A model generated the notes under the pieces. It searched no databases. It saw nothing but the letters and a program-made list of their open reading frames with translations, and was not told the DNA's origin. A stretch of DNA of 64,000 nucleotides from Melioribacteraceae bacterium. Its GTDB lineage: Bacteria > Bacteroidota > Ignavibacteria > Ignavibacteriales > Melioribacteraceae. The stretch lies in assembly GCA_016342755.1 (NCBI GenBank), contig JAEINS010000006.1, forward strand, positions 62,001 to 126,000, written 5' to 3'. Of this stretch, positions 32,254 to 47,212 are shown piece by piece. Made by a program: the position numbers and the translations under genes. The first letter of the stretch is position 1. Every line of letters begins with the position of its first letter.

Positions 32254-33498
32254 TTACCATTTAATCTGACTTGGATCAATTTTTTCAAGTTGAACAAGTT
32301 CGGTAGAAAGAACTTCTCTATTAAATCCGGTTGACTTAAAAATGACATAAAAATGTTTTGGAAACTCGCCAAACTTTTCTTCAAACTTAAGTTTAAGTTT
32401 TTCCAGAGAACTTTCTTCAGTAATATATTTAATAGTTCCAACAGATCCTGTGGCATAAAAACTAGCGATAATTAGAATTGTATTATTATTTGGTCCCGGA
32501 ATTTTTATAAAAGCAGAATAATCAATATGATCAAATGCCGGTATTCCCGTCCTTTTATATTCAACAACAGAATCTTTGCTGCTGAAATTTGCAATTGTTA
32601 AGGTCTCATCTCCAATAATATTGTAACTCATTCCAAGATCTTTTATTACCGGATCAAGTAAACCGAGAGTCCAGAAAGAGCCGAGAAAAACAATATCGTT
32701 GGCTTTTATATCGTTCGAATTTAAAGTTGAAGCGCTGTTAATCCTATATTCAATATTATTCTCGTGCATTATTTTAACAAGATGTGGCAGAGGCCAGACG
32801 GCTGCCTGATTAAAAAATGAGAATGGAAGTTTTTTATATGAATCTCTTTCGCTGTCTTCCGACTTAAATTTTTCGAATTCTTCTTCACGATTTATTTCAG
32901 AATTACGATACATTTTTCTTATTGATTTTGTTTTAAACTCACTGAAATCGCTGTAATAAAGAAAATCATCGCCGAGCGAAATAATTGTATTTTTATCTGC
33001 TTTAATAAAATCGGAATAAATGTTTAAAGCAACAGCAGAAGAAGTCAGATCATTTTGATTTTTTAACTGAGCGGGAATTTTAAAGATCAAATAAATAATT
33101 ATGATTATTAAAAGCGTGATAATTGAAATTAAAATTAGATAAGGATTTTTAACTTTGTCTTTTAAGTTCTCTTTCGAATAATTAAAGAATTCAACCTCAT
33201 AATGCCCTTTGGGTATTTTAACCCTGAGTTTTGTCCGTTTTCCCATATTTTGGTAATAACGTTCTAATTTTTTTCTGAGATTATAAACCGAGACACGGAC
33301 AATTGTATCTTCGTTTGGATTAAAACCGGAGTCTTTATTAAAAACATCAATCGCTATAGAAAATTCTGAAGGGCTTGTATTGTTGATCGAACATTCAATT
33401 AGGTATGTAAGCAGCTTGCAATTTAGTTTTGAATTAGCAAAACTTTTGCTTTTTAATATTTCTTCTAATATGTGTTTTTTTGTTGAATTATCAATCAT
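32254..33498 (-). CDS. CadC/ToxR-like membrane-anchored winged-helix regulator of the glycan locus
   Basis: A 414-residue one-component regulator. Residues 1-103 are a winged-helix DNA-binding domain: the recognition-helix area reads EDTIVRVSVYNLRKKLERYY and the wing reads KIPKGHYEVEF, which parallels the LRKKL...GxGY pattern of the OmpR/CadC C-terminal effector domain. One membrane helix follows (119-139, LILISIITLLIIIIIYLIF). Residues ~145-414 are a periplasmic sensor of a kind I do not recognise. The same N-terminal domain type is known from acidobacterial signalling proteins (from memory). It is divergent from the TonB receptor gene, with phased repeats between them, so it probably controls that locus in response to a periplasmic glycan. 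Confidence 0.75.
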   Translation of the reverse strand: MIDNSTKKHILEEILKSKSFANSKLNCKLLTYLIECSINNTSPSEFSIAIDVFNKDSGFNPNEDTIVRVSVYNLRKKLERYYQNMGKRTKLRVKIPKGHYEVEFFNYSKENLKDKVKNPYLILISIITLLIIIIIYLIFKIPAQLKNQNDLTSSAVALNIYSDFIKADKNTIISLGDDFLYYSDFSEFKTKSIRKMYRNSEINREEEFEKFKSEDSERDSYKKLPFSFFNQAAVWPLPHLVKIMHENNIEYRINSASTLNSNDIKANDIVFLGSFWTLGLLDPVIKDLGMSYNIIGDETLTIANFSSKDSVVEYKRTGIPAFDHIDYSAFIKIPGPNNNTILIIASFYATGSVGTIKYITEESSLEKLKLKFEEKFGEFPKHFYVIFKSTGFNREVLSTELVQLEKIDPSQIKW

Positions 33499-33667: not shown

Positions 33668-33760
33668 ATAAGTTATACTTGCCCCAGAAATATAATTCGC
33701 TTAGTCCAGAAATAATTAAACATTTAAGCAAAAAAAATTAAATAGAAGGTGATAAGTAAT

Positions 33761-36691
33761 ATGAAATGGCCAAAACTAACATACGCTTTTTTTCTAATCG
33801 TTTTATTCATTTTTCAAAATTTAACTATTGCCCAGAGTATATCCGGGAAAATATCGGACAAAGAAACGGGTGAAGTTTTAATAGGCAGTAATGTTATGTT
33901 AATTGGAACTTCTATTGGTGCCGCATCCGATTTTGAAGGAGCTTATGTTATAAAATCCGTTCAAGCCGGGGAATATAAAATTAAGGCTTCTTTTCTTGGA
34001 TACAAACCTCTTATAAAAGATATAACAGTTGTAGAAGGAAAGAAAATCATTCTTGATTTTGTACTCGAATTTGAAAGTCTGCAAGGTGAAACTATTGTTG
34101 TTACGGCTCAGGCATTGGGACAAAAACAGGCAATAAATCAGCAGTTATCATCAAAGAACATAAAAAATATAGTTTCTTCGGCAAGAATTAAAGAAGTGCC
34201 GGATGCAAATGCGGCAGAATCAGTAGGGCGTTTGCCAGGTGTTTCTCTTTTAAGAGAAGGCGGCGAAGGCAACAAAGTAGTTATTAGAGGTCTAGAACCA
34301 AAATTTAACGCAATAACAATAAACGGTGTTTCACTTTCATCTTCGGATGCCGGTGATAGAAGTACAGACTTAAGTATGATTTCTTCGAGTATGCTTGCCG
34401 GAATTGAAGTCTCGAAAAGTATTACTCCTGATATGGATGCAAATGTTATTGGAGGTACGGTTAATTTTCAATTACGGGACGCAACTACAAATATTTCCGG
34501 CAAACCAATAATAGCTCTTAATGTGCAGGGAGGATATAATGGTTTATCGAATGCCCGGGAAAACTTCAAAAATTTTAAAATTGACGCGTCATTCGAAAAT
34601 AGATTTTTAGATAACGATTTAGGTCTTTTTGTACAGGGTTCTTACGAAAATAGGAATCTGTCCTCTAATGAACTGGGCGCGCAATATGATCCGATGGGAG
34701 TGAGCGAGGAAGATTATTTAATTAACAATATTTTTATCAGCGATATTTTTAGAATGCGGGAAAGAGGAAACGCGGTTTTATCGCTCGATTATAAATTACC
34801 GCAAGGAAAAATTAAATTTTCCAATTTATTAAGTACTAGTACAACGGAAACAAATAGCAGAGGTCAGGCATATTTAGTTGATAAAGGTTCAAATACTCAA
34901 AGATTTTCCGGTATGTTCTCTGAGAACACATTAAATTCAATATCCAACATTCTTAATTTTGAAAACCAGTTTTCCATTTTTGATGTTAAAACATCCTTAT
35001 CACATTCATATTCAGAATCAAAAGCACCCAATTCATGGGATGTCAGATTCTCCAATACTCCTGCTAACATTGAAAAATTTGCGTCTATTTCAAATGCCGA
35101 TCCCAAAGATGTTGTAAAAGCCGCTAATAATGATTTAGAAAATACTTTACTGCAGACAATTACAGCTACCAATACATTCGGAAGAGAAAGAAGCCTTGCC
35201 GCTTCTATTGATTTAGAAACACAATTCAATTTATCAGATTATATAACCTCAACAATAAAATTTGGCGGAAAGTATCAGCATAAAAAAAGGTCGTATAACA
35301 GTAATACAATTAATGGCGATAGTTTTGGATTAGCGAGCGGTGCCGCTTTAATTGATCAGCTACAGAACAATATTTCCTGGTTTAATCATTCACCGGGCGA
35401 TAATGTTAATGTTCAAATGAATCAGTTTGTAGATCACAATTTTGATTACGGTTCATTTTTAGATGATGATTATGAAATGGTTTATCCATTAGATTTTGAC
35501 CGTTTACATGAAATGATCAATTTTATGAATAACAACTTGCTTGATGACAACATTACTTATAATAAAAATATTGGTGCCTCTTTAACAAATGATTACGAGG
35601 GAACAGAAGATATTTCTGCTGCATACATTATGGCAACAATTAATATTGGACCAAAATTAACAATTATCCCCGGTGTTAGATATCAGGAATTAAGAACTTC
35701 TTATACTGCTCCTCAGGGTTTACAGGGACCATTTCCTTTTTCATCGTACGAACACAAATTAAAAACTGTAACTGAATCACACTCATATTTTTTACCGGAT
35801 GTTTTAGTTCAATATAAACCATTTGACTGGTTTGATGTTAGACTTGCCTACACTAATACCTTATCGTATCCGGATTATGCAGCTTTAACTCCAAGAATAA
35901 ATGTTGCTTTAACAGGTAATAGTCTGGCATATAATGGTTTTAATCTTAAACCAATGGAATCTAAAAACTATGACGCCTATTTCTCATTCTACAATAATAC
36001 AGTCGGGCTGTTTACCGTAGGCGCGTTTTTAAAAGAAATGAAAGACCTGATTTATCAGTATACATTTACTCCGGCTACTTCAGACGATTTAATTGTGTAT
36101 TACCCTGACTGGGTAGCTAATAAAAATCCTAAGGCAGGTGTTAATGTTACGCGCTGGTTAAATAATTCCTTTAAAGTTGATAATTATGGAATTGAACTAG
36201 ACTGGCAAACACATTTCTGGTATCTGCCTAGTGTTCTTTCCGGTTTAGTTTTTAATATTAATTATACCCATATTTTTTCAGAAGCAGAATACCCGGTTCA
36301 GGTTTTTGTACGCGAGGGAAGACGTGTTGTTCCGGTAGATTCTTCTTTTATAGCTCCGTTATTATTCCAGCCGGATGATATCTTAAATATAACAATTGGT
36401 TACGATTATGAAGATTTCTCATTAAGAGTATCGATGTTATATAGTTCAGATGTTTTTACAGGCCCGCGTGTTTATCCGCAATTAAGAGCTTCAACAGATT
36501 CATATACAAGATACGACTTAACAATGAAACAAAAGCTGTCGTTTATTATGGAAGGATTTGAAGTCTTCCTGAATTACAACAATATATCCGGAGCCGATGA
36601 TGCCAGTTCAATTTCAGCACAAACAAGTGCGCCAACAAGAATACAATCTTATGGTTCAATGATAGAACTGGGTTTAAGAAGTCAATTTTAA
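33761..36691 (+). CDS. TonB-dependent receptor of the glycan locus (Xanth-Caul type)
   Basis: I start at ATG 33761 (GAAGGTG at 33745-33751); the product is 976 residues with a signal peptide to IAQ. A CarboxypepD_reg-like domain comes first (SGKISDKETGEVLIGSNVML). The plug then reads AESVGRLPGVSLLREGGEG, VVIRGLEPKFNAITINGVS and GIEVSKSITPDMDANVIGG, matching the TonB-dependent receptor subfamily first described in Xanthomonas and Caulobacter, which often imports oligosaccharides including chitin fragments. The barrel ends in GLRSQF, with a terminal Phe as expected. No SusD follows. It heads a co-directional run with a T9SS protein, MFS transporter, ChbP and GH20-like genes. Confidence 0.92.
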   Translation: MKWPKLTYAFFLIVLFIFQNLTIAQSISGKISDKETGEVLIGSNVMLIGTSIGAASDFEGAYVIKSVQAGEYKIKASFLGYKPLIKDITVVEGKKIILDFVLEFESLQGETIVVTAQALGQKQAINQQLSSKNIKNIVSSARIKEVPDANAAESVGRLPGVSLLREGGEGNKVVIRGLEPKFNAITINGVSLSSSDAGDRSTDLSMISSSMLAGIEVSKSITPDMDANVIGGTVNFQLRDATTNISGKPIIALNVQGGYNGLSNARENFKNFKIDASFENRFLDNDLGLFVQGSYENRNLSSNELGAQYDPMGVSEEDYLINNIFISDIFRMRERGNAVLSLDYKLPQGKIKFSNLLSTSTTETNSRGQAYLVDKGSNTQRFSGMFSENTLNSISNILNFENQFSIFDVKTSLSHSYSESKAPNSWDVRFSNTPANIEKFASISNADPKDVVKAANNDLENTLLQTITATNTFGRERSLAASIDLETQFNLSDYITSTIKFGGKYQHKKRSYNSNTINGDSFGLASGAALIDQLQNNISWFNHSPGDNVNVQMNQFVDHNFDYGSFLDDDYEMVYPLDFDRLHEMINFMNNNLLDDNITYNKNIGASLTNDYEGTEDISAAYIMATINIGPKLTIIPGVRYQELRTSYTAPQGLQGPFPFSSYEHKLKTVTESHSYFLPDVLVQYKPFDWFDVRLAYTNTLSYPDYAALTPRINVALTGNSLAYNGFNLKPMESKNYDAYFSFYNNTVGLFTVGAFLKEMKDLIYQYTFTPATSDDLIVYYPDWVANKNPKAGVNVTRWLNNSFKVDNYGIELDWQTHFWYLPSVLSGLVFNINYTHIFSEAEYPVQVFVREGRRVVPVDSSFIAPLLFQPDDILNITIGYDYEDFSLRVSMLYSSDVFTGPRVYPQLRASTDSYTRYDLTMKQKLSFIMEGFEVFLNYNNISGADDASSISAQTSAPTRIQSYGSMIELGLRSQF

Positions 36692-36838: not shown

Positions 36839-38566
36839 ATGAAGAAGTTTATTTACTATTTGAGTTTTTTAATGTTCGCGGTAATTACATCTCAAATTAC
36901 GGCACAGTCAGAACTAATTATTCATGCAACTCCAAATTCCTTAGATGCGGTTATAAAAGCAGATCAGGATAGTGGCAGTCCGCATGATATTTATACTTTA
37001 GTAAGTTTAGATACTACTTATGTTTTTGATGAAGGCATTATAATCGATAACAGTATTGTAATTAGAGGTGTAGCAGGTGCAGATGGAAAACTTCCTACAA
37101 TTCAGCCAGGTGTTGATCTGGAAGGAAATGTAGCACCACACTTATTTACTTTTACAAAAGATGAATCTGTTATTAAACTTGAAAACCTATATTTACTTGG
37201 GGTTTCATATAATAATACAGTCGATTTAGGTGATGGTTATGGAGTTACAGTTAATGGAAATAATATTAAAACATACATTGATAATGTAGTATTTGAACAA
37301 TGGACACAATTTAGTGTCAATTTTTCTGGTGATTGGAACAGCTTTTGGGTAACAAATTGTAAATTTAGAAATAGTGTTAACTCTGGATCAGTTTATACAG
37401 GGCAGGCATTCAGACAAAGAAATGATCTGGGTACAACTTTAGTTGATACAATTGTAATGAAGTATAATACCTTTTTTGCAACCAATGCATATGCAATGTG
37501 TTCTCCGGTAACGGGTCATCTTAACTATGGTGAGTTTTCTCATAATACAGTCGCGGCAATGGTTAAAAATCCTTTATTCAGTATGAATGCAACTAATATG
37601 AAAATAGCGCACAATATTTTTTATGATACATACGCGTCAGGTATGTCAAACGGAGAATTCCCCTGGTGGGATAGAATCTGGGCAGGTGGTTTAAGTTCAA
37701 CTATCGATTTTGATCCGCTTAATAAACTTAATGCATATCTGGCAGGTATCGATACAAATGCGGTAGATTGGTCTGTACAGGCTGAAGCAATAAGAACAAT
37801 TGATGTTATTGATAATATCTATTACAGATCGCCTGAAATAGATGCTTTTATAGCAAGTGTTAATGATACAGCCTCAACAGCAAACGATACAATTCATCTT
37901 ACACCATGGATGAATGAAGTTACTACAAATATGTTTGCTGATGATTCTCAATGGCCTGGTTTTAATGATGAAGGCAATAAATTTGTAGATCCTGGTTTTG
38001 GCGATAAATATGCTGAAATATTGGGAGCAAGCGGAACAGTAATCCCGGCAGAAAATGGAATAGGAATGCTGCCTTATATAACATTAGCAAGAGCAAATGG
38101 CGGTACAGCAAATGATCAGTTCGGTTATAATTATTCACAGCCCGATGGATTAGAAGATTGGGTCCCAACCTGGCCTTTACCTGAATTTACTGATGAAGTT
38201 CTAAAATATACAGCCGATTTAACTGCAATTGACGGAATGGTATACGGCGATCCTTTCTGGTTTACAGGTGTAACTGATGTCGAACAAATTAATTCAGTTC
38301 CAACAGAATATTCGCTAGAACAAAATTATCCTAATCCGTTTAACCCATCAACAGTTATAGAGTATAGTCTTCAGAAAGCTGGTCTGGTAAATTTATCTGT
38401 CTTCAATATCTTAGGAGAAGAAGTTGCTACCTTAGTTAACTTAGAACAAGGAACAGGCAGTTATAAAGTTAATTTTAACGCGGTAAACTTTACAAGTGGA
38501 ATTTATTTCTACACACTTTCAACAAACAGTGTTCTTTTAACTAAAAAAATGATTTTAATAAAATAA
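36839..38566 (+). CDS. T9SS-secreted beta-helix-like protein, candidate surface glycan-binding partner
   Basis: A 575-residue protein with signal peptide to ITAQ and a C-terminal T9SS sorting domain (YSLEQNYPNPFNPSTVIEYS to KKMILIK). The body begins like a pectate-lyase-type right-handed beta-helix (YTLVSLDTTYVFDEGIIID, IVIRGVAG, then NLYLLGVSYN and NCKFRNSVNSGS repeating strand-turn units), followed by a less regular segment with many W/D residues. No catalytic residues of a lyase can be assigned. Its place directly after the receptor suggests it takes the surface-binding role that SusD has in classical systems; that is inference. AGGAGAAACAG precedes the ATG. Confidence 0.78.
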   Translation: MKKFIYYLSFLMFAVITSQITAQSELIIHATPNSLDAVIKADQDSGSPHDIYTLVSLDTTYVFDEGIIIDNSIVIRGVAGADGKLPTIQPGVDLEGNVAPHLFTFTKDESVIKLENLYLLGVSYNNTVDLGDGYGVTVNGNNIKTYIDNVVFEQWTQFSVNFSGDWNSFWVTNCKFRNSVNSGSVYTGQAFRQRNDLGTTLVDTIVMKYNTFFATNAYAMCSPVTGHLNYGEFSHNTVAAMVKNPLFSMNATNMKIAHNIFYDTYASGMSNGEFPWWDRIWAGGLSSTIDFDPLNKLNAYLAGIDTNAVDWSVQAEAIRTIDVIDNIYYRSPEIDAFIASVNDTASTANDTIHLTPWMNEVTTNMFADDSQWPGFNDEGNKFVDPGFGDKYAEILGASGTVIPAENGIGMLPYITLARANGGTANDQFGYNYSQPDGLEDWVPTWPLPEFTDEVLKYTADLTAIDGMVYGDPFWFTGVTDVEQINSVPTEYSLEQNYPNPFNPSTVIEYSLQKAGLVNLSVFNILGEEVATLVNLEQGTGSYKVNFNAVNFTSGIYFYTLSTNSVLLTKKMILIK

Positions 38567-38631: not shown

Positions 38632-38782
38632 TAATTAAAAAGAAGTACTCTTCTTAATTGTAAAATTCGATAATTGATATTATTAATTCGCTGAAGTAAC
38701 AAATCAATATTAAAGATAAATTAAAAAAAATATTGATTTGATTGGAAATGTTGTGTCAAAAACAAAAGGACAATCATCAAAT

Positions 38783-40045
38783 ATGACTACTAAAAAAAAG
38801 CATCCGGCTTTCTGGGTTCCAAGTTTATACTTTTCTGAAGGATTACCTTTTGTTGCTACTTCAGTGGTTTCTGTACTTATGTATAAAAGTCTTGGATTAA
38901 CCGATTCGGAAATCGCGTTTTTTACAACACTTGTAATGTGGCCCTGGACTTTGAAACCTCTATGGGGACCATTATTAGAGATGTTTAAAACAAAAAAACA
39001 TTTTGTTGTCGCAACCCAGTTTATCGGCGGAGTTGCGTTCGGAGTTTTAGCTCTAACATTACCTCTTGAGGGATTTCTTCAGTATTCATTGATTATGTTT
39101 GTTATAATTGCCTTTAACTCGGCCACACACGATATTGCCGCTGACGGTGTTTATATAAACACCCTTACGCCTAAAGAACAGGCAAAGTATGTAGGATGGC
39201 AGGGAGCTTTTTATAATATTGCAAAAGTATTTTCGCAAGGAGCACTTGTATATATTGCGGGCAGACTAGAATTAAGTTTAGGAATTGTGGAAGCTTGGAT
39301 GATTGTTATGGGAATATTTGGCTTAATTCTTTTACTAATGGGTCTGTACCACTGGAAAGTGCTTCCTACCGGCGGTTCATCAACTAATGTGAAAAATGCG
39401 GGTGAAGCATTCCAAACCTTTGGAAAAGTTATTAAATCGTTTTTCGCTAAAAAACATATTTATTGGGGATTGGCTTTTATAATTCTTTTTAGAACGGCTG
39501 AAGGTCAGCTTACTAAAATTGTACCATTGTTTATGAGAGCTGCCAGAGCAGATGGCGGATTAGGATTATTAACGGCAGATATAGGAATTGCGTACGGTAT
39601 TTTTGGTGCGGCCGCATTTGTTATCGGTTCAATTGCAGGCGGATATTTTGTAGCTAAGCGAGGATTGAAGAAATCAATTTTTCTTTTGGCAATTATTTTT
39701 AACGTCCCCGATTTGGTCTACACATACCTGGCTTTTACTGTACCTGAAAACTTTTCAATGGTTTGTACCGCTATTGTAATTGAATGGTTTGGATATGGAT
39801 TTGGCTTTGTCGGTGTTATTTTATTTATGATGCAGCAAATTGCGCCTGGGCCTTACAAAATGGCTCATTATGCTTTTGCAACAGCTATAATGAACCTTGG
39901 TTTTATGCTACCTTCAATGATAAGCGGTTTTGTAAGTGATTTTTTAGGGTATCAAAAGTTTTTTGTCTGGGTACTAATTGCAACAATACCCTCATTTCTT
40001 GCTGCCTGGTTAGTTCCTTTTAAGGAAGTTTCGTTCGACGAATAA
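38783..40045 (+). CDS. AmpG-like major facilitator superfamily transporter
   Basis: I use ATG 38783 (420 residues); a GTG at 38753 or TTG at 38738 in the same frame are alternatives. The protein begins HPAFWVPSLYFSEGLPF and carries twelve likely helices, with AmpG-like motifs: MWPWTLKPLWGPLLEMF after helix 2, and FNSATHDIAADGVYINTL in the third-fourth helix region. AmpG imports GlcNAc-anhydromuramyl compounds; relatives in glycan loci carry other amino-sugar oligosaccharides. With a chitobiose phosphorylase as the next gene, the likely cargo is N,N'-diacetylchitobiose or a related disaccharide. Both directionality and cargo are inferred. Confidence 0.85.
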   Translation: MTTKKKHPAFWVPSLYFSEGLPFVATSVVSVLMYKSLGLTDSEIAFFTTLVMWPWTLKPLWGPLLEMFKTKKHFVVATQFIGGVAFGVLALTLPLEGFLQYSLIMFVIIAFNSATHDIAADGVYINTLTPKEQAKYVGWQGAFYNIAKVFSQGALVYIAGRLELSLGIVEAWMIVMGIFGLILLLMGLYHWKVLPTGGSSTNVKNAGEAFQTFGKVIKSFFAKKHIYWGLAFIILFRTAEGQLTKIVPLFMRAARADGGLGLLTADIGIAYGIFGAAAFVIGSIAGGYFVAKRGLKKSIFLLAIIFNVPDLVYTYLAFTVPENFSMVCTAIVIEWFGYGFGFVGVILFMMQQIAPGPYKMAHYAFATAIMNLGFMLPSMISGFVSDFLGYQKFFVWVLIATIPSFLAAWLVPFKEVSFDE

Positions 40046-40101: not shown

Positions 40102-42501
40102 ATGAAGTATGGTTTTTTTGATGATGAAAATAAAGAGTATGTAATTGATAAACCTGATGTTCCGGTTTCATGGACTAATTACCTTGGTGTTAAAGATCTA
40201 TGTACTGTTATTTCTCATAATGCCGGCGGGTATTCGTTTTATAAATCTACAGAACATCACAGGGTAACCAGATTCAGACCAAATGGTGTTCCTATGGATA
40301 GACCCGGACATTATGTATATATACTTGATGATGATACGGGTGAATACTGGACTATTTCATGGCAGCCGGTCGGAAAAGATTTTTCTAAGGCTAAATATAT
40401 TTGCAGACACGGTTTGTCCTACTCTAAGTTTCAATGCGATTATAAGGGTATAGAAGCAGAGCAGCTTTTGTTTATTCCTGTTGAAGAGGATGTTGAATTA
40501 TGGGATGTGAAAATTAAAAACAATTCTGGTAAACCTAGAAATCTAAGTGTGTTTTCTTATGTTGAATTTTCTTTCCATCATGTTGAAATAGATAATCAAA
40601 ATTTTCAAATGAGTTTGTATGCAAGCGGTTCAAATTATAAAGAAGGAATAATTGAATATGATTTTTTCTACGAACCATGGACCTATCATTTTCTAGCTTC
40701 TAATTTTGACCCGGACAGTTATGATTGTGTTAGAGATAAATTTATTGGCAGTTATAGAACAGAAACAAATCCAGAATCAGTAGAAAAAGGAATTTGTTCT
40801 AATAGCACAGAGCTTGGCGGTAATCATTGCGGATCATTACACAAGAAGATTAAACTTGAAGCGGGTGAATCTTCAAGATTAATATTTATGCTTGGTGTCG
40901 GGGCTCGTGAAGAAAAAGGGATAGAAATAAAAAAAAAATATTCTAACCTTAATAATGTTGATAATGAATTTGAGAAGCTTAAAGATTATTGGGATAAAAA
41001 AACATCAATTCTAAAAGTTAAAACTCCTCACGAAGGTTTTAACTCAATGATAAATATATGGACACTTTACCAGGCCGAAACCTGTGTGGTCTGGTCCCGT
41101 TTTGGTTCCTTTGTGGAAACCGGGGGAAGAGTAGGATTAGGATATAGAGATACATCGCAAGATATACTGGGGGTTATTCATACTAATCCTAATAAAACCA
41201 AGGGTAGGATTATAGAATTACTTCAGGGGCATACAAGTAAAGGTTATGGATTACACTTGTTTGATCCGGATGTTTTTAAACCGAAAGAAAATAAATTGCC
41301 CGGTGTAAAACTCCCGACTGTTGTACCTATACCGGATCCTTCAGATATAGTTCACGGAATGGAAGATGTTTGCTCGGACGATGCATTGTGGCTTGTTACT
41401 TCAGTTTGTGAATGGATAGTTGAAAATGATGAGATTGAGTTTTTCGATCAGACTATTCCATATGCTGACTGCGGTGAAGGAACTGTTTATGAGCACATGA
41501 CTAAAATTTTAGATTTCTCAACGGAGCAAGTTGGGCAAACCGGCATTTGTAAAGGACTTAGAGCCGACTGGAACGATTGCCTTAATCTTGGCGGCGGTGA
41601 AAGTTCGATGGTTTCATTTATGCATTATTGGGCTATAAAAGTATTTATCAAATCTGCGGAGAAGCTTGGAAAATATGAGGATGTACAAAAATATACTAAA
41701 ATTGCCGAAAGGGTAAAAAAATCGTGCGAAGAAGAATTGTGGGATGGCGAATGGTATTTACGCGGTTTCACCAAAAAAGGAAAAAAGATTGGTACTCACA
41801 AAGAAGATGCAGGAAAGATATTCTTAAACGCGCAGACATGGTCGGTGCTTTCAGGTGTGGCATCGGACGACAGAGCATTAAAAGCTATGAATGCTGTGGA
41901 TAAATACTTATTTTCAAAATATGGATTACATCTTCTGTGGCCGGCATATTCAGAACCTGATGATGATATTGGCTATGTTACAAGAGTTTATAAAGGGATA
42001 AAAGAAAATGCTTCAATATTTAGTCATCCCAATCCATGGGCTGTAATTGCGGAGTGCGAACTTGGCAGAGGTAATAGAGCCATGAAGTTTTATGATGCTA
42101 TTTTACCGTACCGCCAGAATAACGAAATAGAAATAAGACAAAGCGAGCCATACTCATATTGTCAGTTCATAATGGGAAAAGACCATACTGCACACGGAAG
42201 AGCCAGACATCCATGGCTTACCGGTACTGCATCATGGTTTTATACCGCGGCAACAAAACATATTTTAGGAATTAAACCTGGTTACGAAGGATTGATAATC
42301 GATCCTTGTATACCGTCCGACTGGAAAGAGTTTGAAGTTACCAGAGTCTGGAGAGGTGCAGTATATAAGATTAAAGTGAATAATCCTAATGGAGTTGAGA
42401 AAGGTATAAAATCGATAGAAGTTGATGGAAAGGTTATTAAAGGTATTATCCCAATTGCGCAGAGGGATACAGTTGTAAACGTTAATGTTGAAATGGGATA
42501 A
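40102..42501 (+). CDS. chbP: N,N'-diacetylchitobiose phosphorylase (GH94)
   Basis: A 799-residue cytoplasmic enzyme (no signal peptide). It is a full-length GH94 phosphorylase: N-terminal beta-sandwich opening MKYGFFDDENKEYVI, then a helical linker and an (alpha/alpha)6 barrel. The general acid is Asp492 in RADWNDCLNLGGGESS. Motifs ETCVVWSRFGSFVETGGR and HPWLTGTASWFY are preserved. The overall wording (HNAGGYSFYKS, FSHPNPWAVIAE, DPCIPSDWKEFEVTRVWRG) matches chitobiose phosphorylase of Vibrio more closely than cellobiose phosphorylase. It cleaves chitobiose with phosphate to GlcNAc-1-phosphate and GlcNAc, saving one ATP. It lies 56 nt after the transporter and 39 nt before the GH20-like gene. 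Confidence 0.9.
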   Translation: MKYGFFDDENKEYVIDKPDVPVSWTNYLGVKDLCTVISHNAGGYSFYKSTEHHRVTRFRPNGVPMDRPGHYVYILDDDTGEYWTISWQPVGKDFSKAKYICRHGLSYSKFQCDYKGIEAEQLLFIPVEEDVELWDVKIKNNSGKPRNLSVFSYVEFSFHHVEIDNQNFQMSLYASGSNYKEGIIEYDFFYEPWTYHFLASNFDPDSYDCVRDKFIGSYRTETNPESVEKGICSNSTELGGNHCGSLHKKIKLEAGESSRLIFMLGVGAREEKGIEIKKKYSNLNNVDNEFEKLKDYWDKKTSILKVKTPHEGFNSMINIWTLYQAETCVVWSRFGSFVETGGRVGLGYRDTSQDILGVIHTNPNKTKGRIIELLQGHTSKGYGLHLFDPDVFKPKENKLPGVKLPTVVPIPDPSDIVHGMEDVCSDDALWLVTSVCEWIVENDEIEFFDQTIPYADCGEGTVYEHMTKILDFSTEQVGQTGICKGLRADWNDCLNLGGGESSMVSFMHYWAIKVFIKSAEKLGKYEDVQKYTKIAERVKKSCEEELWDGEWYLRGFTKKGKKIGTHKEDAGKIFLNAQTWSVLSGVASDDRALKAMNAVDKYLFSKYGLHLLWPAYSEPDDDIGYVTRVYKGIKENASIFSHPNPWAVIAECELGRGNRAMKFYDAILPYRQNNEIEIRQSEPYSYCQFIMGKDHTAHGRARHPWLTGTASWFYTAATKHILGIKPGYEGLIIDPCIPSDWKEFEVTRVWRGAVYKIKVNNPNGVEKGIKSIEVDGKVIKGIIPIAQRDTVVNVNVEMG

Positions 42502-42540: not shown

Positions 42541-43638
42541 TTGAAGAGTATTAACTTATTATTTTTGTCAATGATTATAATTTTTTCTTCGTGTGTTAAT
42601 GTGCCAAGGCAAAATATGAAAGAGAAAAATAAGTGGGATAATATAGAAGAGGAAGCCAGACTAAGCTGGCGGGCTGTTCATTTACTCCATTATAACAATG
42701 ATAAAGCCTTGGGTGGTTTATCAAAACAAATTCCTTTATTAAGTAAAATGGGAATTAATAAAATAATTTTAGAAGTTGATTATCACTTTAATTTTAAGTC
42801 ACACCCGGAACTGCGACAAACGGATTCAACAATAACTAAAGAAGGTGCTCAGGCATTTTCAAAAATTTGCGCAGAAAACGGGATTGAAATTATTCCTCAG
42901 TTTCAATGTGTTGGTCATCAGTCGTGGGCAAAAGATACGTGGAAGCTTTTAGAAGTATATCCTGAATTGGACTTAACACCAAACGCATTTCCAAATAACG
43001 AAGGATTATATTGTAGAGAGTGGGATGTAACAAATAAGAAAGTATATGAAATTATATTCCCTTTAATTGATGAAATTATTGATGCTTTTAATGCCAAAGC
43101 AATACACGTTGGAATGGATGAAGTTTTCCTTCTTGGCTCTGAATTTTCTCCAAATACAAAAGGGCAGGATCCGGCAGTGTTATTTGCAAAAGCTGTAAAC
43201 GATATGTATAATCATCTGGTTAAAGATAAGAACGTTGAAATGTTAATGTGGGGCGATAGATTAATTGATACCGCAAAAGTAAATTATGGCGAATGGGAAT
43301 CCGCGGCAAATGGAACAGCCTCTGCTTTAGATATGATACCCAAAGACATAATTATATGTGACTGGCATTATGAAAGTTTTGATGACTATAAAAGTTTGAA
43401 GGAAAAAGACTTTTTATCAATTCCAATGTTTCTCGAAAAAGGATTTAGAGTTTTGCCTACAAGTTGGAGAGTCGCAGAAAATATGGAAAGTCTGATGTAC
43501 AGCAGCTTAATACATTATAAACCTGAAATGCTGGGACATCTGTTTATCCTCTGGTCATCGGCCAAAGGCGAAGAGTTAATTAAATATCAGCCTATGGTAA
43601 AAGGTCTTAAACTTGGGGAAAGATTTTTTAGGAAGTAA
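42541..43638 (+). CDS. GH20-like beta-N-acetylhexosaminidase lipoprotein
   Basis: A 365-residue lipoprotein that starts with TTG (AGAGG eight bases upstream); the lipobox is IFSSC with lipidated Cys18. The body is a TIM-barrel glycosidase-like domain. Its central motif HVGMDEV (His189, Asp193, Glu194) is the Asp-Glu pair of GH20 N-acetylhexosaminidases, which use substrate-assisted catalysis. VGHQSWA and the C-terminal WSSAKGEE segment also fit. It lacks the usual N-terminal GH20b domain and is short. In this locus it would trim GlcNAc from oligosaccharides in the periplasm or at the outer membrane. A related inactive or hexosaminidase-like role is possible. Confidence 0.78.
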   Translation: MKSINLLFLSMIIIFSSCVNVPRQNMKEKNKWDNIEEEARLSWRAVHLLHYNNDKALGGLSKQIPLLSKMGINKIILEVDYHFNFKSHPELRQTDSTITKEGAQAFSKICAENGIEIIPQFQCVGHQSWAKDTWKLLEVYPELDLTPNAFPNNEGLYCREWDVTNKKVYEIIFPLIDEIIDAFNAKAIHVGMDEVFLLGSEFSPNTKGQDPAVLFAKAVNDMYNHLVKDKNVEMLMWGDRLIDTAKVNYGEWESAANGTASALDMIPKDIIICDWHYESFDDYKSLKEKDFLSIPMFLEKGFRVLPTSWRVAENMESLMYSSLIHYKPEMLGHLFILWSSAKGEELIKYQPMVKGLKLGERFFRK

Positions 43639-45355: not shown

Positions 45356-47212
45356 ATGAAGTTAGTAAAGCTTGTTGTAATAAGTATTGTAATTCTATTT
45401 AACATTTCTAACGCACAAGAAACAAAGAAATCAGATGAAGTGAGATTTGTTCTGTTTGGTGACAGTCAGTTTGGTAATCCGCCGGAGTTTGAACGAATGA
45501 TTCATGAGGCAGAAATGCTGAGACCGGATTTTGCGATACAGGTTGGCGATCTGATTCACGGTTATACAAAAAACAAAGAACAGTTGCGTAACGAATGGAA
45601 ACGGTTTAAAAATCAGATATCGCCATTAACCACGCCGTTTTATCCTGTACCCGGAAATCATGATGTTGTTACAGATGAAGCTGAAGAAATTTATGCTGAA
45701 GTCTGGGGAAAGGAAAAGCTTTATTATTCGTTTGATAAAGAGCATGTTCATATTATTGTTCTTAATTCATGGTGGCAGGAAGCGGATGATAGAATTGAAG
45801 AATGGCAGAGAGATTGGTTAGTCGAAGATCTTAAGTCTTATGCTGATAAAAATGGCGGTATTGATTCTGACCAATTCAAAACAAAATCAATTTTTGTCTT
45901 TGTACATAGCCCTTTATGGAAATACCCGGATGAAGTAGAAGGGAAAAAGGATTGGGATTTGGTTCATGAAATTTTAAAAAAATATCCGGTTAAATTAGTA
46001 GCGGCAGGTCATTCTCACGAGTATGTCTGGGAAAATAAGGACAGCATTAATTATCTCGTTATAAATAGTGCGGGTGTAAGCAGACCAAGCTATAGGGGCG
46101 GGAAGTTTTCTTCTTTCCTTCATGTAAGTGCTTTGGATAATGGCGATATACATTATGGCAACATAAAAGCTGGTTCTGTACTGCCTTTAGACTCAGTTAA
46201 TCCGGATGAGCGGAAAACTGTTCCACAATATAACATAAGAGAACAGACTATTCAGGTTCCAGATTGGAAAGAGGGAAAATCATTGAGCATGAAAGTTAAT
46301 GCCCCAATAATAAATAGTTTATCTGTTCCAAGAAGATATAGACTTGACTGGTACATTCCGTACGAAGCAAAAGTAACGATTGAACCGGAAAGTATGTGGT
46401 TAGATATTCCAGCAAATGATACAGCCAATTTGGAATTTATTATAAATTCTGAAAATGCTCCATCACCTGATAACTTACCTTGGATGGAAATAAGTTCTAA
46501 AGAAAACTTGAGAACGGGATATGTTGCAAGAAAAATTGAAAAAAAATATAGAGAAGAAAAAAACAGTAGTGTAATACTTGATGCTCCTGTTGAGTTTAAA
46601 GGAAAGTACAGATTGTTTATTCCGCCGGTTTCTGTTGTTAAACGCATAGACGGCGAAATTAAACTTGACGGTGTTATTGATGACGCTGTTTGGGAAAGAG
46701 CAGATATAATCGGAGAGTTTAAGAAATCAGGTAATGAGCCAATTGGTGAAAAAACGCAAGTAAGAATTCTATACGATGATGACTATCTTTACTTTGGTGT
46801 ATGGCTGGAAGAACCTAATCCAAAGGACTTAAGGAATGAAGCAATAGGTCCTATTCCTTTAACCTGGGATGATGATGATTTTGAAATGTTCTTTGATCCG
46901 GCGCAATCGCAAAGTGATTATAACAGATTATTTATTAATTCAGCCGGAACAAGATTTAACTCTCTTCCGCGCTGGCATCAGGATAAATATTTTGAGAGCA
47001 GTTATAAAAGCAAGATACATGTTGGTGAAAATTTTTGGTCAATAGAAATGATTATTCCCTGGAGTGATATTGCTTTAGAGAAAGCTCCTAAAGCCGGTGA
47101 TAAATGGGGATTTAATGTCGGTCGCCATAGACAGCAAAGTTATATTAAGCGCAGCAAATGGTCGGGCAATTTATATAATCCTAAAACTTATGGTATTTTG
47201 AGGTTTGAATAA
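45356..47212 (+). CDS. Secreted calcineurin-like metallophosphoesterase with CBM9-like C-terminus
   Basis: A 618-residue exported protein (signal peptide to ISNAQ). The metallophosphoesterase domain (about 27-260) keeps the metal motifs FGDSQFG, QVGDLIHG, GNHD and AAGHSHEY. A linker region (about 300-400) follows, then a domain at ~425-615 with LDGVIDDAVWERAD, VRILYDDDYLYFGVWLEE and DDDDFEMFFDPA, which is the CBM9-like (DOMON-type) sugar-binding fold. It probably hydrolyses a phosphoester on or near a carbohydrate, though the substrate is not readable. ATGGGGAT precedes the start by a few bases. A perfect palindrome separates it from the NtrC-like gene. Confidence 0.85.
   Translation: MKLVKLVVISIVILFNISNAQETKKSDEVRFVLFGDSQFGNPPEFERMIHEAEMLRPDFAIQVGDLIHGYTKNKEQLRNEWKRFKNQISPLTTPFYPVPGNHDVVTDEAEEIYAEVWGKEKLYYSFDKEHVHIIVLNSWWQEADDRIEEWQRDWLVEDLKSYADKNGGIDSDQFKTKSIFVFVHSPLWKYPDEVEGKKDWDLVHEILKKYPVKLVAAGHSHEYVWENKDSINYLVINSAGVSRPSYRGGKFSSFLHVSALDNGDIHYGNIKAGSVLPLDSVNPDERKTVPQYNIREQTIQVPDWKEGKSLSMKVNAPIINSLSVPRRYRLDWYIPYEAKVTIEPESMWLDIPANDTANLEFIINSENAPSPDNLPWMEISSKENLRTGYVARKIEKKYREEKNSSVILDAPVEFKGKYRLFIPPVSVVKRIDGEIKLDGVIDDAVWERADIIGEFKKSGNEPIGEKTQVRILYDDDYLYFGVWLEEPNPKDLRNEAIGPIPLTWDDDDFEMFFDPAQSQSDYNRLFINSAGTRFNSLPRWHQDKYFESSYKSKIHVGENFWSIEMIIPWSDIALEKAPKAGDKWGFNVGRHRQQSYIKRSKWSGNLYNPKTYGILRFE

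Follow-up and report, generated by a model that had tools for sequence, protein, structure and literature searches.

What takes the place of SusD in a glycan locus that lacks it? The SusC-SusD pair is the textbook hallmark by which the glycan-uptake loci of Bacteroidota are found. The window considered here, a stretch of 64,000 nucleotides from a Melioribacteraceae bacterium, holds a TonB-dependent receptor of another type, and a sequence-only reading proposed that the secreted protein encoded behind it captures glycans at the cell surface, held there by the type IX secretion system (T9SS) in place of a lipid anchor. Two observations on which that proposal stood are borne out: the gene lies directly after the receptor gene (33749-36691), and a Pfam scan of 8 proteins of the locus returned zero SusD matches. 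We call the protein BHEL, and the features discussed below are as follows.

32254..33498, minus strand: divergent putative membrane-bound regulator, with no named family above cut-off
33749..36691, plus strand: TonB-dependent receptor of the TIGR01782 (TonB-Xanth-Caul) type with CarboxypepD, plug and barrel domains; the partner of BHEL
36839..38566, plus strand: T9SS-sorted beta-helix protein (BHEL), 575 aa, ATG start, from domain scans and a model
36839..36904, plus strand: signal peptide, residues 1-22, then Gln23; cleavage site by eye
36992..37624, plus strand: right-handed beta-helix coils, main stack, about residues 52-262, from model secondary structure and structural matches
37625..38263, plus strand: conserved C-terminal part of the body (final coils and helical cap), about residues 263-475, from alignment conservation and the model
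38327..38554, plus strand: T9SS type A C-terminal sorting domain, residues 497-572 (PF18962, TIGR04183)
38738..40045, plus strand: AmpG-like MFS transporter (under the AmpG cut-off), probable inner-membrane importer, from domain scans; conserved in sister loci
40102..42501, plus strand: GH94 phosphorylase of the N,N'-diacetylchitobiose phosphorylase type, from a domain scan and bit scores against PDB chains
42541..43638, plus strand: GH20-type beta-hexosaminidase-like lipoprotein (PF00728, E 2.9e-10; lipobox by eye)

The receptor, its probable cargo and the place of SusD

The receptor matches TIGR01782 over residues 114-980 with 355.5 bits (cut-off 310), and reaches 49 bits on the SusC model TIGR04056, under that model's cut-off of 368. 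Five of six further receptors scanned also exceed the TIGR01782 cut-off, and the sixth falls just below it. Downstream of BHEL, the GH94 phosphorylase scores 1145 bits against chitobiose phosphorylase 1v7v and 541 against 8bou, and at most 497 against cellobiose phosphorylases (3qde). Because this enzyme is of the chitobiose phosphorylase type, the cargo of the locus is probably chito-oligosaccharide, a substrate that lyases cannot cleave; a sister locus (L041) carries an additional GH18 enzyme with a sorting domain.

The lack of SusD matches extends beyond the locus. The SusD Pfam models PF07980 and PF14322 find zero matches in the whole genome, and neither BHEL (E <= 1) nor any of 37 family members scanned matches them. 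A single receptor in the genome passes the SusC cut-off, on contig C15, and it is followed by a TPR lipoprotein of 473 aa (L232:355-4612) that the SusD models do not recognize and that could be a divergent SusD. We considered whether SusD is absent from the lineage and rejected this, given that SusC-type receptor with its TPR lipoprotein and PF07980 matches in 77 of 294 genomes of the class. Two published studies describe susCD as scarcely detected in the enzyme clusters of Ignavibacteriales paddy-soil genomes, numerous as those clusters are (PMC10576277), and a single susCDE operon in Melioribacter roseus (PMC3534657).

Two other genes of the window deserve mention. The regulator-like protein at 32254-33498 (minus strand) has a central transmembrane stretch, and homologues of it lie beside the receptor-BHEL pair in seven other loci (L047, L059, L133, L139, L145, L193 and L199). 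Positions 45356-47212 encode a secreted-looking protein in which a calcineurin-like phosphoesterase domain is joined to a CBM9-like domain.

Predicted fold and route to the surface

What kind of protein is BHEL? The signal peptide described in the sequence-only reading is visible by eye as 22 residues followed by Gln, and the strand-turn repeats that it likened to pectate-lyase folds correspond to a right-handed beta-helix that AlphaFold2, run on the protein without its signal peptide and with an alignment of 60 sequences, predicts confidently (mean pLDDT 90.2, pTM 0.81) and whose structural matches are themselves beta-helices. By VIA-align the closest solved fold is that of BcAlyPL6, a two-domain PL6 alginate lyase, in its C-terminal beta-helix half (Z 29.9, 297 residues, 2.8 A), a match to its residues 427-747 that covers the region of BHEL residues 263-475; further PL6 C-terminal halves follow at Z about 24, and the other top matches are phage depolymerases, pectate lyases and alginate epimerases. 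Foldseek with the same model returned zero PDB matches at E <= 0.001. At the level of sequence the body belongs to no named family in Pfam, NCBIfam or PHROGs: the Pfam model Beta_helix (PF13229) is sub-threshold on BHEL (E 0.023), 23 of 37 relatives match it weakly and nothing else meaningful in a Pfam/NCBIfam scan, and sequence and profile searches of the PDB gave nothing useful. A plasmid collection yielded no homologue.

These folds raise the main rival to a binding role, namely that BHEL is an enzyme acting on carbohydrates at the cell surface (a lyase, hydrolase or epimerase built on the beta-helix) and supplies the receptor with oligosaccharides, the pairing and the co-divergence both arising through the substrate. 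Its best structural matches are such enzymes, all 60 aligned sequences share the residues D42, D203, E316 and R319, which could be catalytic or structural, and T9SS exports many enzymes, among them sorting-domain GH18 and GH53 proteins in loci that carry the pair. However, the strongest match involves the C-terminal half of a two-domain PL6 lyase, and enzymes of this kind have their active site in the other, N-terminal half (PMC11381880). A review credits the PL6 C-terminal domain with helping to position substrate and also with weak lyase activity (PMC8618178). No enzyme model in Pfam or NCBIfam matches BHEL, and in particular no lyase model that would place it in PL6, nor does a profile search retrieve any PDB chain. 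The loci with recognizable cargo already bring their own enzymes, of several unrelated chemistries, and chitin-type cargo offers a lyase no uronate; on these two grounds the enzymatic reading is weakened.

The T9SS sorting domain noticed in the sequence-only reading scores above both curated cut-offs (Por_Secre_tail, PF18962: E 2.2e-9, 37.9 bits versus 27; TIGR04183: E 4.6e-10, 39.3 bits versus 23), and it is a property of the family: 136 of 138 complete distinct homologues keep it, one of the two exceptions being apparently frameshifted (L076) and the other having a similar but unmatched tail (L231). A signal-like hydrophobic core is present in 133 of the 138. The window protein has no lipobox, and only one homologue in 138 has a lipobox-like motif. 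With a sorting domain so nearly universal and a lipobox so rare, T9SS, and not a lipid, is the route to the surface that the sequences predict for this family, in keeping with the substitution originally proposed. The genome encodes SprA, the T9SS translocon.

In its own genome (56 contigs, 4.7 Mb) the BHEL query gives about 146 matches, nearly all in the sorting domain, a very large set of T9SS cargo for a genome of this size. On another contig (L081:4880-10761, C8:38900 onward) the gene immediately after a TonB-dependent receptor encodes another kind of sorting-domain protein (981 aa), with response-regulator-like and histidine-kinase-like genes beside the two; this is possibly a second pairing of a receptor with a T9SS protein.

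Conservation and co-divergence of the receptor-BHEL pair

Is the neighborhood of receptor and BHEL more than an accident of one operon? We surveyed 294 genomes of the class, taking the best two receptors per genome at E <= 1e-90 (125 receptors) and, with a profile of 37 BHEL bodies, the best 5 BHEL candidates per genome. Among the matches listed, the receptor occurs in 73 genomes and BHEL in 80, and 72 of the 73 receptor genomes also have BHEL (Fisher p 3e-58). For 110 of the 125 receptors a BHEL homologue lies no more than 1 kb downstream in the same orientation, or is the next gene, so the joint conservation across Ignavibacteria that the sequence-only reading called for is found, and its proposal is not refuted on this count. 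For 74 of the 110 the homologue is among the listed matches and lies within these limits of distance and strand. We inspected the remaining 51 receptors locus by locus, and in 36 of them the gene that follows is a homologue (in L091 once a spurious ORF of 81 aa is disregarded). The others are one locus in which a single gene separates the two (L087), three in which the protein after the receptor has a sorting domain but does not match in its body (L098, L113, L130), two with the receptor at a contig edge (L088, L123), and nine without a BHEL neighbor (L082, L083, L084, L085, L086, L089, L090, L110 and L131). Counted from the BHEL side, a receptor is directly upstream in 33 of 42 and in 80 of 95 homologues (two partly overlapping sets), and the order is reversed in L182 and L183.

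The genome of the window itself has four full-length receptors of this type, three of which are followed by a BHEL-family member (the window, L060 and L059, the last recognized by profile); the fourth (C12:360482) sits in a sulfatase/glycan gene cluster and has no such neighbor. Beyond the class, a phylum search of 395 genomes was positive in 50, of which 24 belong to other classes, and most of the 20 loci fetched from outside the class contain the pair. Named carriers include Melioribacteraceae, Stygiobacter electus, Kryptoniota and KSB1, together with one record labeled Marinimicrobia and one labeled Bacteroidales.

A T9SS cargo gene might have come to lie beside a receptor by happenstance, as such genes are common (the 146 sorting-domain matches above). 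However, sorting-domain matches amount to roughly 4% of genes by a rough estimate, against 110 of 125 receptors with an adjacent BHEL, and the arrangement is therefore not chance. The pair also recurs across classes of the phylum, and its partner-specific co-divergence, described below, exceeds that of other operon genes. On co-occurrence and adjacency, the shuffle test and the comparison with operon genes we set simple hitch-hiking aside as very nearly incredible; the receptor-BHEL pair is real, dedicated and widespread.

The genes around the pair vary. Among 20 proteins scanned from pair loci we found GH2, GH18, GH20, GH53, GH94, GHL10, Spherulin4, sulfatases, SSF transporters and an isomerase-like enzyme, and with so many enzyme families among its neighbors the pair serves loci of many chemistries. 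The same scan gave no family for the neighbors in L164, L215 and L227, and those in L213 (a peptidyl-prolyl isomerase) and L203 (FecR) do not point to a glycan locus. BHEL itself varies in length and number: long variants of 836-1322 aa occur (L077, 886 aa; L078, 1322 aa; L203, L217, L219, L221, L225), and in L064, L067, L069 and L076 two copies or pieces of the gene stand in tandem after one receptor, those of L076 looking frameshifted.

The two partners also diverge together. Across 73 pairs, the distance matrices of the receptor and the BHEL body correlate with r 0.907, as compared with 0.39 for the receptor and the sorting domain, and when partners were shuffled within 11 genomes that hold several pairs the mean fell to 0.765, with 0 of 5000 shuffles reaching 0.907. 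At 17 chitobiose-type loci that also encode the MFS transporter and GH94, the receptor correlates with BHEL at 0.82 (partial correlation likewise 0.82), with the transporter at 0.36 and with GH94 at 0.24, and an earlier set of 10 loci agrees. Split by domain over 71 pairs, the body follows the barrel (0.91) and the plug (0.82) more closely than the periplasmic CarboxypepD domain (0.60), and the barrel correlates with the sorting domain at 0.41. Even when sampled down to as few columns as the periplasmic domain has, the barrel gives 0.82; in 36 closer pairs it keeps a correlation of 0.72-0.75, as the periplasmic and sorting domains drop to about zero. The co-divergence is thus specific to the receptor barrel. 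Contact at the barrel would produce this pattern, and so would a specificity that BHEL shares with the barrel; the two fit alike, and shared substrate specificity alone could be its source. That BHEL follows the barrel and not the co-encoded GH94 speaks further against an enzyme that makes oligosaccharides for the receptor, which we regard as rather unlikely overall.

Both halves of the BHEL body co-diverge with barrel and plug, and conserved residues are spread through the whole body, as might be expected if BHEL itself bound no glycan but supported or gated the receptor, whether as an assembly factor, as a cap or as a docking element for T9SS. Yet the beta-helix folds that it matches belong mostly to carbohydrate-active proteins, and the tandem duplicates after one receptor in L064, L067 and L069 are easier to reconcile with additional binding proteins than with an assembly factor that is obligate; we judge such a purely structural role to be distinctly improbable. 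With regard to contact, we modeled a read-through fusion (L152) as receptor barrel, without the plug, joined to the BHEL body. Both parts fold as expected, disorder is confined to the linker, and pTM is 0.78, against about 0.6 for two undocked domains of these sizes by a rough estimate, which is suggestive of receptor-BHEL contact in the model and no stronger than that.

Proposed role and comparison with known systems

We propose that TIGR01782 receptors probably have in BHEL a dedicated partner, delivered by T9SS, that binds glycan and is similar to SusD in its job but unrelated to it. BHEL would cross the inner membrane via Sec and the outer membrane via T9SS, after which its sorting domain would keep it attached to the surface in the manner of T9SS type A cargo. 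There the beta-helix body may capture oligosaccharide and pass it to the receptor at its extracellular face, so that the task SusD performs on SusC would be done by an unrelated fold with an unrelated anchoring route. In the window, the cargo, most likely chito-oligosaccharide, would then travel from the receptor to the AmpG-like transporter and on to GH20 and chitobiose phosphorylase. The nine receptors without a BHEL neighbor, along with the one at C12:360482, speak against this proposal. TIGR01782 receptors of Xanthomonas and Caulobacter are not known to have such a partner, and a receptor of this type therefore need not have one.

How does this arrangement relate to systems already known? 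Like SusD/RagB proteins, BHEL is encoded directly after a TonB-dependent receptor (in its case not SusC) in loci rich in glycan enzymes, is predicted at the cell surface, can occur as several diverged pairs per genome and co-diverges with its receptor. Unlike them, it is a beta-helix in its AlphaFold2 model (pLDDT 90) where SusD has a helical TPR-type fold, it lacks a SusD Pfam match, it carries a T9SS sorting domain where SusD has a lipid anchor, and its receptor is of the TIGR01782 type, in contrast to SusC (TIGR04056). BHEL is not a member of the SusD family. SusE/SusF and other SGBPs are lipoproteins encoded after SusD; they provide accessory surface glycan binding, the role proposed here for BHEL, whereas BHEL occupies the SusD position itself. 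The C-terminal beta-helix domains of PL6 enzymes (BcAlyPL6 427-747, AlyGC, Patl3640) match the predicted fold in coils and cap, but identity is 16%, there is no profile match to any PDB sequence, and BHEL stands alone, T9SS-sorted and receptor-paired, with no attached catalytic domain. The window receptor falls, above cut-off, in the same TIGR01782 subfamily as the TonB-Xanth-Caul receptors of SusD-less Xanthomonas and Caulobacter loci, and differs from them in its N-terminal CarboxypepD domain and its T9SS-delivered partner, neither of which is known from the proteobacterial receptors.

Our literature search, which covered titles and abstract openings and had preprints and most subscription journals outside its scope, found, among the papers listed, no description of a TIGR01782 receptor paired with a T9SS beta-helix protein. 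The published scarcity of susCD in Ignavibacteriales clusters (PMC10576277) leaves the route of glycan import there to be explained. We see an even chance that the pair represents a phylum-wide alternative to SusC-SusD, in which TIGR01782-type receptors work with substrate-specific T9SS beta-helix lids that have diversified over chitin-type, sulfated, GH2-type and GH53-type glycans, and that in the susCD-poor Ignavibacteria it is a main route by which glycans are taken up. A conserved receptor with a T9SS beta-helix partner would give a searchable marker for the glycan loci of Ignavibacteriales, would tie T9SS directly to nutrient import, and would show that the role of a capture protein can be filled by an unrelated fold.
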